Assembly: GCA_902767135.1 (NCBI GenBank)
Contig: CACXGE010000099.1
Location: 1-64,000, forward strand
Reading direction: 5' to 3'
Source of the DNA: an uncultured Lachnospiraceae bacterium
GTDB taxonomy: Bacteria > Bacillota > Clostridia > Lachnospirales > Lachnospiraceae
DNA length: 64,000 bases
A program made the translations under genes and the position numbers. Below are positions 28,668 through 32,665 of the stretch, piece by piece. The notes below the pieces were generated by a model that was not told the DNA's origin, searched no databases, and worked only from the letters and a program-made list of their open reading frames with translations. The first letter of the stretch is position 1; each line of letters begins with the position of its first letter.

Positions 28668-28838
28668 TTAGCCTTCTGAGATAGCTCCAGCTGGACATGT
28701 TCCAGCACAAGCACCGCAGCTGATGCATGTATCAGCATCAATTTCGAACTTTCCATCTCCTTCTGAGATAGCTCCTACTGGACAAGCACCAGCACAAGCA
28801 CCACAAGAAACACAAGCGTCTCCAATTACGAATGCCAT
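28668..28838 (-). CDS. 2[4Fe-4S] ferredoxin
   Basis: A 56-residue clostridial ferredoxin. Two CxxCxxCxxxCP clusters are visible: CVSCGACAGACP near residue 9 and CISCGACAGTCP near 39, in an internal duplication (GAISEG closes both halves). It carries electrons at low potential for pyruvate oxidation, hydrogenase or radical-SAM enzymes. Strong AAGGAGG lies eight bases before the ATG. It lies 108 bases downstream of pflA on the same strand; the flavodoxin or ferredoxin that reduces PFL activase could be this protein (inference). Confidence 0.95.
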   Translation of the reverse strand: MAFVIGDACVSCGACAGACPVGAISEGDGKFEIDADTCISCGACAGTCPAGAISEG

Positions 28839-28946: not shown

Positions 28947-29708
28947 TTATTTATTTCCATTTATGGCATTTCTTTTTGCCTTGATACCCTCTAGAATATG
29001 TTTTTTTAATTCCAAAGCAGTATTTTTATCCATGGCAGGAACATCTTTAAGTGGATATTCCATATTTAGTTTTTCATACTTGGGTTTTCCCATAGTATGA
29101 TAAGGAAGCACGTCTAAGGCTTTCAAGTTTGACAGGCCTCCGATAAAGTAACCTAAGTTATACAGGTCTGTAGGGTCATCCGTGATTCCTGGAACCACCA
29201 CATGGCGTATCCAGAGGGGTACTTCTTTTGCTGCCGTATATTCTGCAAACTTTAAAATCTGTTCATTGGGCTGGGAACACAGTTTCTGGTGTTTTTCCGG
29301 GTCAATGTGCTTGATATCCAACATAATCAGGTCTGTGACCTCCATGAGCTTATCCAGCTTTTCGATGTAAGCGGTATTAGCTTCGTTATAGGCAATCCCA
29401 GAGGTGTCTAAACAGGTGTGGACACCTTTTTCCTTTAATTTGGTAAATAGTTCTGTGACAAAATCAACCTGCATCAGTGGTTCTCCACCAGTGACTGTGA
29501 CACCGCCATTGGTATAAAACATTTTGTTTCTTTCATATGCATCAATAATCTCGTCAGTATCCATTTGATTTCCTGTATTCATTTCCCAGGTGTCTGGATT
29601 ATGGCAGTAGAGGCAGCGCATGGGACAACCCTGAACAAAGACCACAAAGCGGGTTCCAGGACCGTCTACAGTGCCAAAACTTTCGGTAGAGTGTACATAT
29701 CCTTTCAT
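28947..29708 (-). CDS. pflA: Pyruvate formate-lyase activating enzyme
   Basis: Radical-SAM enzyme that abstracts hydrogen from the glycine of PFL. 253 residues. The cluster-binding CX3CX2C is at Cys28, Cys32, Cys35 (GCPMRCLYCHNPDTW), and VTGGEPLMQ binds the S-adenosylmethionine. It follows the small glycyl-radical gene by 90 bases, with a terminator between, and has its own ribosome site GAAAGGAGAA. Here its substrate is probably the separate small glycyl-radical protein at 29799-30041 in complex with the core. Confidence 0.96.
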   Translation of the reverse strand: MKGYVHSTESFGTVDGPGTRFVVFVQGCPMRCLYCHNPDTWEMNTGNQMDTDEIIDAYERNKMFYTNGGVTVTGGEPLMQVDFVTELFTKLKEKGVHTCLDTSGIAYNEANTAYIEKLDKLMEVTDLIMLDIKHIDPEKHQKLCSQPNEQILKFAEYTAAKEVPLWIRHVVVPGITDDPTDLYNLGYFIGGLSNLKALDVLPYHTMGKPKYEKLNMEYPLKDVPAMDKNTALELKKHILEGIKAKRNAINGNK

Positions 29709-29746: not shown

Positions 29747-29779
29747 AAGGGGCCCCCATTGCTGAGGCCCCTTAGAAAA
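29747..29779 (-). terminator. Terminator between the glycyl-radical gene and pflA
   Basis: AAGGGGCC and GGCCCCTT, 11-base loop, followed on the minus strand by TTTTTT. Strong, so pflA is either separately promoted or expressed by partial readthrough at a lower level than PFL. Confidence 0.85.
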
Positions 29780-29798: not shown

Positions 29799-30041
29799 TT
29801 ACATGCTTTCGTGGAATGTACGTGAGATAACGTCAGCCTGCTGTTCTGGAGTTAACTTAACAAAGTTTACAGCATAGCCAGAAACACGGATTGTCAACTG
29901 TGGATAGTTTTCAGGATGAGCCTGAGCATCCTTAAGGACATCTCTGTTCAGTACATTTACATTCAAATGATGTCCACCCTTTGTAGCATATCCGTCTAAT
30001 AATGATACTAAGTTATCTACCTGTGCCTGATTTTCAGCCAT
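29799..30041 (-). CDS. grcA: Autonomous glycyl-radical subunit of pyruvate formate-lyase
   Basis: 80 residues matching the C-terminal segment of PFL and the E. coli repair protein GrcA/YfiD. It carries [19 protein letters not shown], then [18 protein letters not shown] with the radical Gly55, and ends RTFHESM like PFL. In E. coli GrcA is a spare that replaces a damaged PFL end; here the main PFL gene lacks this end completely, so this protein must supply the radical itself. It lies third in the pfl run. AAAGGAGGATATT precedes the ATG. Confidence 0.93.
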
Positions 30042-30070: not shown

Positions 30071-30274
30071 TTAATCTTCCAATTGATCGTCAATGCCTTC
30101 GTGGAGGGTAGGAACCTGGCAAGCCAGGTTCCCCTTTGCACAATCGATACAACCGAGAGTTTCAACACTCCGTTCCGTCGAATCGCCATTGACTTCAACG
30201 TTAAGGTGTCCTACACCTTTCTGAGTTGAGCCATCCAAGAAGGCTACAATATCGTCGATTCTTTTATCGTTCAT
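30071..30274 (-). CDS. Small PFL-derived protein without glycyl radical
   Basis: 67 residues between the PFL core and the glycyl-radical gene. Its first 30 residues ([20 protein letters not shown], then LNVEV) match the start of the neighbour ([20 protein letters not shown]), i.e. the PFL linker strand. Instead of RVSGYAV it continues with a Cys-containing tail, [14 protein letters not shown], and ends acidic. So it is a paralogue that kept the docking part and lost the radical part. The gene contains a perfect 9-bp hairpin at 30111-30132. AGGTGTG precedes the ATG. Role unknown: spacer, competitor or sensor. Confidence 0.75.
30111..30132 (-). promoter_or_regulatory. Hairpin inside the small pfl paralogue
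   Basis: GGAACCTGG, loop CAAG, CCAGGTTCC: a perfect 9-bp GC-rich stem within the coding sequence of the 67-residue frame. No T run follows. It could stabilise or stop part of the transcript and set the ratio of PFL core to radical subunit; this is inference. Confidence 0.45.
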
Positions 30275-30292
30275 TTAAATCACACCTATTGA

Positions 30293-32335
30293 TTAGTTGT
30301 TTCCTAAATCGATTTCGATATCACCAGCGAATACCTGATCTTCTTTTCCAAGTGCTCCAGGAATGATAGTAAAGGTATTTGAGATACCATCCTGTGCTTC
30401 CATGAATGGAAGTTTAGAAACGGAAGAAAGAGAAGCTACTGCACCATGAGTATCACGTCCGTGAAGTGGGTTAGCACCTGGAGCGAATGGCTGTCCTTTC
30501 TTTCTACCATCTGGTGTGTTACCTGTTGCCTTACCATAAGTAACGTTTGAAGTAATTGTTAATACAGAACATGTTGGGAAACTGTCTCTGTATGTATACT
30601 GCTGTCTTAAGAATCCCATGAATGTACGAAGAACCATCTGAGCAAGTTCATCTACGCGGTCATCATCATTACCATATTTAGGGAAGTCACCTTCTACATT
30701 GTAATCTACAACGATACCGTCTTCATCTCTGACAGCTGTAACCTTTGCGTACTTGATTGCTGATAAGGAGTCAGCTACTACAGAAAGACCAGCGATACCT
30801 GTTGCGAAGTAACGACGTACATGAGCATCATGTAAAGACATCTGTAATCTTTCGTAGCAGTACTTGTCATGCATATAGTGGATAATGTTCAATGACTGTG
30901 CATATACACCTGTTAACCACTTCATCATGTCTTTGTATTTAGACCATACATCGTCAAAGTCTAATACATCACCTTCTAATGGACGATACTTAGGTCCAAC
31001 CTGTTTCTTGGAAACTTCGTCTACACCACCATTGATAGCGTATAATAAACATTTCGCAAGGTTTGCTCTAGCTCCGAAGAACTGCATTTCCTTACCAACT
31101 CTCATGGAAGATACACAACAAGCGATAGCGTAATCATCACCATGTGTTACTCTCATCAAGTCATCGTTTTCGTACTGAATAGAAGAAGAGATGATTGACA
31201 TCTTAGCACAGTATTTCTTCCATGCAAGTGGTAATCTTGTAGACCAAAGTACTGTTAAGTTTGGTTCAGGAGCTGCACCTAAGTTCTCTAATGTGTGTAA
31301 GTAACGGAAGGACATCTTTGTTACCAATGGACGACCATCAATACCAACACCACCAAGAGATTCTGTTACCCATACTGGATCACCAGCGAAAATGCTGTTG
31401 TATTCTGGTGTACGAGCAAACTTAACGCAACGTAACTTCATGATGAAGTGGTCTACGAATTCCTGAATCTGATCTTCTGTAAATGTTCCGTTCTTTAAGT
31501 CTCTCTGAGCGTAGATATCTAAGAATGTAGATGTACGTCCAAGGGACATAGCTGCACCGTTCTGTTCCTTAACTGCTGCTAAGTATCCGAAGTATACTGC
31601 CTGGATAGCTTCCTGTACGTTTGTAGCAGGCTTAGTAATATCGCATCCGTAAATTTCAGCTAATTTAGCAAGTTCTTTTAAAGCCTTAATCTGTTCAGAG
31701 TACTCTTCACGGTCACGAATTACTTCTGGAGTCATGATTTCTGGAGTTCCGGCTTTCTGAGCTTCCTTATCTTCGATAAGACGATCAATACCATATAAAG
31801 CTACACGACGATAGTCACCGATGATACGTCCACGTCCGTAAGCATCTGGGAGACCTGTGATTACATGGCTTGAACGACAAGCTCTCATTTCTGGTGTGTA
31901 AGCATCAAATACACCAGCATTGTGTGTCTTTCTGTGTGTTGTGAAGAATTCAACTACTTCTGGATCTACTTCGTATCCGTTATCTTCACAAGCTTTCATT
32001 GCCATACGGATACCACCGTAAGGCTGCATAGAACGCTTAAAAGGCTTATCTGTCTGGAAACCAACGATAGTTTCTTTTGACTTGTCTAAGTATCCAGCTC
32101 CATGGGAAGTAATAGTAGATACAACCTTTGTATCCATGTCAAGAACGCCGCCTGCTTCACGTTCCTTCTTTGTTAAATCCATTACCTGTGCCCATAAGTC
32201 TTTTGTGTTCTGTGTAGGCCCTGCTAAGAATGATTCATCTCCTTCATAAACATCATAGTTCTTCTGGATGAAATCTCTTACATTAACTTCTTTTTCCCAA
32301 AGTCCGCCTACAAAATCTTTCCATTCTGGTCTCAT
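30293..32335 (-). CDS. pflB: Pyruvate formate-lyase core, lacking the glycyl-radical segment
   Basis: Converts pyruvate and CoA to acetyl-CoA and formate. 680 residues, about 80 fewer than E. coli PFL (760). The catalytic Cys pair is intact (IACCVSSM, Cys406 and Cys407), as are the [10 protein letters not shown]-type and [18 protein letters not shown] blocks. It ends [21 protein letters not shown] just before the linker and RVSGYAV segment that carries the radical glycine in ordinary PFL. That segment is supplied by the separate gene at 29799. The enzyme is thus naturally split. AGGAGG-like AATAGGAGGAAT precedes the ATG. Confidence 0.93.
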
Positions 32336-32665
32336 TTTTGTACATTCCTCCTATTATAAATATAAAAATATGGTTAAGTAAAACAATCGTGGAATTGTCT
32401 TACCTGGTTCCTATGCTTACATTATAAGATAATCATTTTCTAACGTCAAGAACAGAAGTACACAAGAAATGTACTTTTTTGTATACAAAATACAAAACAC
32501 CCGCTTTCCAGAAACATAGTAAATTCCTTGTGAATCTGGTATGGATGTTTTGTAAATATTATGTGACTATTTGGTGTAGTTAAAGGAACAGTTCAGGCAG
32601 GGCTGTGCATTTACTGCGCTGACTGTCTGAACTGTTACTAGATAAATGAATCAAGGAATGGGAGC
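32336..32665. other. Intergenic region between pflB and the pseudouridine synthase gene
   Basis: 330 bases holding the presumed pflB promoter (A/T-rich, minus strand, about 32380-32460) and the 54-bp mobile element at 32585-32638. No further gene seen. Confidence 0.6.
32577..32646. mobile_element. 54-bp GTAAC-type element with 8-bp flanking repeat
   Basis: Element at 32585-32638: GGAACAGTTCAGGCAG at one end (T to G at base 2) and CTGTCTGAACTGTTAC at the other. The centre, GTGCATTTACTGCGCTGA, matches the 5' third of the 135-bp elements. Flanks TAGTTAAA and TAGATAAA match at seven of eight. It appears to be an intermediate-length member of the family. Confidence 0.78.

Follow-up and report, generated by a model that had tools for sequence, protein, structure and literature searches.

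PFL, an enzyme central to fermentation in gut Lachnospiraceae, loses its radical to O2, a classic reason for the strict anaerobiosis of such bacteria. In many gut bacteria the oxygen-sensitive radical part of PFL is a separate small protein, and this splitting of the radical domain looks like a means of swapping a damaged part. What, then, is the role of a short gene without a radical motif that lies between the core gene and the radical gene of such a system? The question is raised by the window analysed here, a stretch of 64,000 nucleotides from an uncultured Lachnospiraceae bacterium.

In the window, a PFL core gene is followed on the same strand by an open reading frame of 67 residues, here called the mini, then by the gene of the radical subunit and by pflA (Table 1). 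A core without radical domain adjoining a complete radical subunit and an activase makes this a split PFL system. An earlier note on this DNA had placed the 67-residue frame between core and radical genes at positions 30071-30274, and this location is exact: the frame lies on the minus strand, with its ATG at 30274, its final codon at 30074 and a stop ending at 30071. The mini ATG follows the core stop after a gap of 18 nucleotides, in the same reading frame. The core itself matches TIGR01255 with 1064.6 bits (cut-off 994.2) over profile positions 2-665 of 744; it has the invariant catalytic pair Cys406-Cys407 and no Cys at its C-terminus. The separate radical subunit is already in databases as GrcA3. 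Directly 3' of pflA lies the gene of a two-cluster ferredoxin (FdxA_fam), which could be the electron donor of the pflA product.

Table 1. Features of the split PFL locus in the window, and small open reading frames with a similar N-terminus elsewhere (positions after a contig handle refer to that contig)
Feature	Position	Strand	Basis or remark
Promoter-like TTGACG-17-TATAAT upstream of core gene	32421..32449	minus	consensus match only, 11 of 12
PFL core, 680 aa, without glycyl-radical domain	30293..32335	minus	PF02901 E=8e-214
Possible ribosome-binding site AGGTG, 8 nt upstream of mini ATG	30283..30287	minus	sequence
Mini, 67-aa radical-less docking protein with dithiol tail	30071..30274	minus	ORF, homologues, synteny, purifying selection
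Mini docking module (predicted), residues 1-28, helix and strand HLNVEV	30191..30274	minus	homology to radical-subunit N-terminus
Mini tail motif, residues 44-57	30104..30145	minus	conserved Cys are C45 and C52
Split glycyl-radical subunit, 80 aa, RVSGYAV, GrcA3-like, without Cys	29799..30041	minus	NF038360 E=2.2e-46; PF01228 E=7.8e-23
Terminator-like hairpin between radical subunit and pflA	29754..29767	minus	consensus match only
PFL-activating enzyme pflA, radical SAM	28947..29708	minus	TIGR02493 304.7 bits, cut-off 231.75
Two-cluster ferredoxin gene (FdxA_fam)	28668..28838	minus	
Second small-ORF family, window's own genome	L303:1441-1713	minus	adjoins asparaginyl-tRNA synthetase-like ORF
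Second small-ORF family, further members	L217:2912-3154, L221:2858-3130, L222:2400-2609, L224:2987-3202, L225:2815-3066		
Third small-ORF family	L218:2915-3172, L219:2955-3269, L220:2844-3149		

To begin with the nature of the frame, the mini is a real gene. Its shortness and the lack of any Pfam or PHROGs family might suggest a chance frame or a decaying duplicate of the radical subunit, and sequence searches gave no PDB match either. However, a profile built from 15 homologues (E below 1e-14) recovered it in about 97 of 397 Lachnospiraceae genomes, so that the lack of conservation in relatives, named by the earlier note as its refutation, clearly does not apply, and two genomes from other families of the same order carry it as well. 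Among five congeners, dN values of 0.02-0.16 stand against dS values of 0.25-1.5 (dN/dS about 0.1), which indicates purifying selection on the frame and rejects its decay. Synteny is equally fixed. In the comparison suggested by the earlier note, homologues lie beside split pfl genes in other Lachnospiraceae: 94 of 99 distinct minis are flanked by the core gene and the radical gene in the same orientation, and the full gene order of the window including the activase is retained around 82 of the 99. Because homologues occur in many genera with dN well under dS, the mini is not a product of chance, and we count the chance or decay reading as refuted. The remaining five of the 99 are orphans away from pfl, and thus co-expression with pfl is not universal. 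In two of the genomes with orphans (L117, L118) pflA stands between the core gene and the radical-subunit gene rather than after both.

Regarding its distribution, a scan of genome contigs with the single protein gave matches solely in Lachnospiraceae and Clostridia genomes, and further samples added two more clostridial families (L266, L269, L300). A wide sample of 398 genomes across the phylum gave one-piece PFLs and nothing more outside the family. Plasmids gave no match, and a single match of 13 residues on a viral contig was regarded as chance.

The homology of the mini is confined to its N-terminal part. Residues 2-28 share 48% identity over 27 residues with the N-terminus of the radical subunit, and the NCBIfam model GrcA3 (NF038360), the only NCBIfam hit, covers residues 2-29 below threshold (E=1.6e-4, 21.7 bits, cut-off 158). 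The earlier description of a copied docking strand therefore stands as to the copying, while the copied part is a helix plus the strand and not the strand alone. The glycyl-radical motif RVSGYAV is absent from the mini of the window and from all listed homologues; as had been read from the window sequence, a Cys-containing tail stands instead of the radical loop (replacement segment residues 41-54). Two other families of small frames with a similar N-terminus were seen away from pfl. One, with a similar N-terminal helix and strand and the tail HHGRCDVGSPWAKG, is also present in the window's own genome and gave no Pfam or NCBIfam family; the other carries the tail KCCHMYGR-A-ETV-LLDMYTD.

Within the tail, the comparison of 100 distinct minis allows the constant part to be narrowed down. 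The pattern C-x5-9-C-x-[VIA]-P-[TN] is matched by 97 of them, and six residues separate the two Cys in 91; the other three, from two lineages, stop early and end in C-x-x-C. C45 and C52 are conserved family-wide, whereas C42 is found in 72 of 100. The reading of three characteristic Cys is thereby not supported: by alignment, the constant feature of the mini tail is two thiols, not three. The spacing of the pair is 5-9 in the minis and 0-6 in the core tails described below, a variability that fits flexible thiols; a fixed metal site in the tail was rejected on the same ground. A disulfide between mini and radical subunit was also rejected and is unlikely because radical subunits show almost no Cys (none in 150 of 153 distinct sequences, one of the other three having its Cys before the start Met). 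An extra core Cys specific to split enzymes, as a possible disulfide partner, was sought and none was found. The tail sequence A-C-x-V-P is similar to the active-site loop A-C-C-V-S of the core (residues 405-410), an unquantified likeness that could be mimicry or chance.

A new observation came from split PFL loci without a mini. In these, the core itself ends in a tail with the same two-Cys motif, for instance ...DLADCSNGACQIPNLNDVEDNE or ...IGDCANMACNIPNIEESIDREPEL, and MAFFT placed these tails against the mini tails unaided. To extend this set, split loci from further genomes were picked solely for the presence of a radical subunit and the absence of a mini, and distinct loci were counted. 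Tail Cys were found in 0 of 96 split cores with an adjacent mini, and at least two in 44 of 50 split cores without one (44 of 44 in the class with a tail in cis, which is so defined). One-piece PFLs had no linker Cys in 21 of 24 cases. Of the six split cores with neither tail nor adjacent mini, four come from genomes that hold an orphan mini (G006, G309, G324, G361) and a fifth (G158) from one with a divergent orphan mini ending in ECENSPVPMACGVPT; in the sixth, G315, no tail and no mini were found. Conversely, the genomes with a tail in cis had no mini in the family-wide profile search, their matches being the radical subunit. Thus, tail in cis and gene in trans are shown to be mutually exclusive in split PFL loci, and, by sequence comparison, what stays constant across split PFLs is the Cys tail rather than the docking module. 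Split enzymes are almost always paired with a short two-Cys segment, either as a core tail or on a separate docking protein.

The rule is strong but not absolute. In other clostridial families outside Lachnospiraceae, 13 split loci comprised seven with a tail in cis, three with a mini (in L266 located after the radical gene) and three in which neither was found, so that 10 of 13 obey it. Neither tail nor mini was found at L264/L301, L299 and L270/L302 (the last at the end of a contig, in a genome that is 82% complete). Given by genome, split loci with no tail and no mini found occur in G315, G1053 and G992. Because neither form was found at some split loci, the element is not indispensable and not needed for catalysis as such. 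In split-pfl genomes an additional radical subunit gene is often present on its own, without a core gene in its neighbourhood (L120-L127), reminiscent of a spare part.

How often the element changed between the two forms was estimated on a tree of 163 cores from which the tail was excluded. The best tree shows about 15 changes between cis and trans, the exact number being uncertain because support values come from a quick search, and the supported branches force at least six gains or losses of each label. On these branches, five independent pairs all went opposite ways (5 of 5, p 0.0625), pairs too few for a formal test. Nested among the split PFLs is a clade of eight one-piece enzymes without a tail. 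In another nested one-piece pair (L143, L193), a Cys-containing linker lies between core and radical domain, and this pair looks like a cis-tail core re-fused to a radical domain.

To describe the possible docking in structural terms, an AlphaFold2 model was computed for a core-mini fusion obtained by natural readthrough, with the TAA read as Gln, and with an alignment in which the one-piece PFLs were cut after the docking strand. The model reached a pLDDT of 81.8 and a pTM of 0.85; for the docking helix (690-705 of the fused reading) the pLDDT was about 86. Residues 1-721 of the model superpose (Z 56.6, rmsd 2.2 over 691 residues) on residues 3-715 of E. coli PFL (2pfl), and the docking module superposes on E. 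coli PFL 682-715. The model thus supports the placement of the docking module in the radical domain's place on the core, as a matter of consistency and not as independent proof, because the one-piece alignment rows lead the model there. The tail was not confidently placed in either of two readthrough jobs (pLDDT about 30-45); in untrimmed superpositions it runs into the Gly734 region, at a pLDDT of about 30 that set this aside as evidence. The proposal that the mini could occupy a core free of its radical subunit is supported in part: docking homology and the modelled position are consistent with a site that would be shared with the radical subunit, and the structure prediction suggested in the earlier note agrees for the docking module and leaves the tail without a confident place.

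Taken together, we propose a placeholder role for the mini: itself radical-less, it would carry a dithiol tail to the unoccupied radical site, keeping the core folded and its thiols safe until it is displaced, a reading to which we assign a probability of roughly 0.48. The N-terminal helix and strand would dock on the core at the radical-subunit site and deliver a flexible tail, of which the pair of thiols is the sole constant feature. This tail may enter or cap the vacant radical-loop site beside Cys406-Cys407, and could keep the radical-free core folded with its catalytic thiols safe, either capped or in a mixed disulfide when conditions are oxidising, until the mini gives way to a fresh radical subunit. 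In relatives with a core-fused tail, tethering would take the place of the docking module. A split core would regularly find itself without a radical domain, such as when O2 has cleaved the radical subunit, which would create the need for a placeholder; in a one-piece PFL the enzyme's own domain would cover the site. The split core has no stretch equivalent to E. coli 696-733; the mini adds helix, strand and tail, and the cis form adds the tail alone. In E. coli, PFL that is cleaved or without an intact radical domain is proteolysis-prone (PMC8683613). A protective or redox role would fit the strict pairing of the two-Cys tail with the split state, and the placeholder reading is favoured because what both forms have in common is a pair of thiols at the expected entry point of the radical loop into the barrel, with a spacing that varies too much for a metal site.

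Other roles were weighed against the same observations. The mini might be a loading or activation factor: instead of shielding the site, it would flag an empty core as competent and help the radical subunit to be inserted or to be activated by PflA. In E. coli, residues 696-733 (the beta10 strand and half of the loop) are needed for binding and activation of the spare part YfiD, and when they are truncated, YfiD activation falls 32-fold and binding is no longer measurable (PMC8683613); the mini has a copy of this stretch, with the helix and the beta10 strand but no Gly, and the cis tail sits at the same chain position. However, the helix and strand are missing from the cis tail, and conservation is centred on two thiols, which a pure recognition element leaves unexplained, so that we consider this role unlikely although it deserves to be kept in mind. 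A docking module that brings a thiol pair to the radical site, in a role linked to the split state, would also suit a radical quencher, whose dithiol gives hydrogen to the glycyl or thiyl radical and switches PFL off before O2 destroys the radical subunit. Yet mini and radical subunit would be expected to compete through the docking module, so that one core would not hold both, and one-piece PFLs with the same O2 problem do without it; we regard quenching as improbable.

Even less probable is a half-site enforcer, in which a core dimer would hold one radical subunit and one mini and have one active site. The mini and the radical subunit do have the docking module in common, and half-site radical content was reported for E. 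coli PFL in vitro (discussed in PMC12338860), but the same work does not support half-site reactivity in vivo, and every cis core has a tail, so that such tails could not set a 1:1 ratio. Finally, a tail rich in Cys, with three in some copies, could bind Zn or a cluster, as in the small Fe-S subunits of other glycyl radical enzymes. Since there are two constant Cys only, at a spacing of 0 to 9 and with no further fixed ligand, we rate such a site as very improbable, a little below the half-site role.

Extending the placeholder reading beyond the mini, split glycyl radical enzymes in general may depend on a dithiol guard that moved repeatedly between the core C-terminus and a decoy of the radical subunit, and that shields the thiols of the empty core until exchange, a broader proposal which we hold tentatively and at less than even odds. 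Across Clostridia the split state is accompanied by a dithiol element, present either in cis or in trans but not as both, and this implies that a core without its radical part calls for separate handling. If this is true, the radical domain is a replaceable cartridge with its own protective cap. The element offers a testable handle on the oxygen survival of split glycyl radical enzymes, and a basis for annotating a widespread nameless small gene. In the literature searched, with bioRxiv and most subscription journals lying outside that search, neither the mini nor the core tail was found described.

Among known systems, GrcA/YfiD and GrcA3 resemble the mini in being small and in carrying the docking strand of the PFL radical domain; they act in trans on a PFL core, as the mini would. 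The mini sits beside the pfl genes, alongside a complete radical subunit, and unlike GrcA/YfiD it has neither the RVSGYAV loop nor the C-terminal helix after it; in their place is a conserved pair of Cys. Lacking the radical motif, the mini stands outside GrcA. Short Cys-containing partners of glycyl radical enzymes are known in the HPAD small subunit and in BSS beta and gamma, whose Cys sets serve [4Fe-4S] clusters. The mini differs from these Fe-S subunits in its two constant Cys of variable spacing, where they have four fixed Cys per cluster, and in a docking module related to the radical domain. With redox-active dithiol proteins it shares a conserved Cys pair.

The closest solved cores are the formate acetyltransferases of PDB entries 38la and 38lb (1079.5 and 1139.7 bits), apparently of the split type, for which no mini or separate radical-subunit chain was matched in the PDB. 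The 38lb chain runs on past the core as ...FGECDMCEMKELD, with a C-x-x-C at the tail position, and the mini or tail may thus be partly known to the authors of these entries. The nearest likeness in fold position is the stretch 696-733 of oxygen-cleaved E. coli PFL, which likewise comprises the beta10 strand and the start of the loop without the radical Gly (PMC8683613). That stretch is part of PFL and a product of damage, whereas the mini is a dedicated gene with a dithiol tail.
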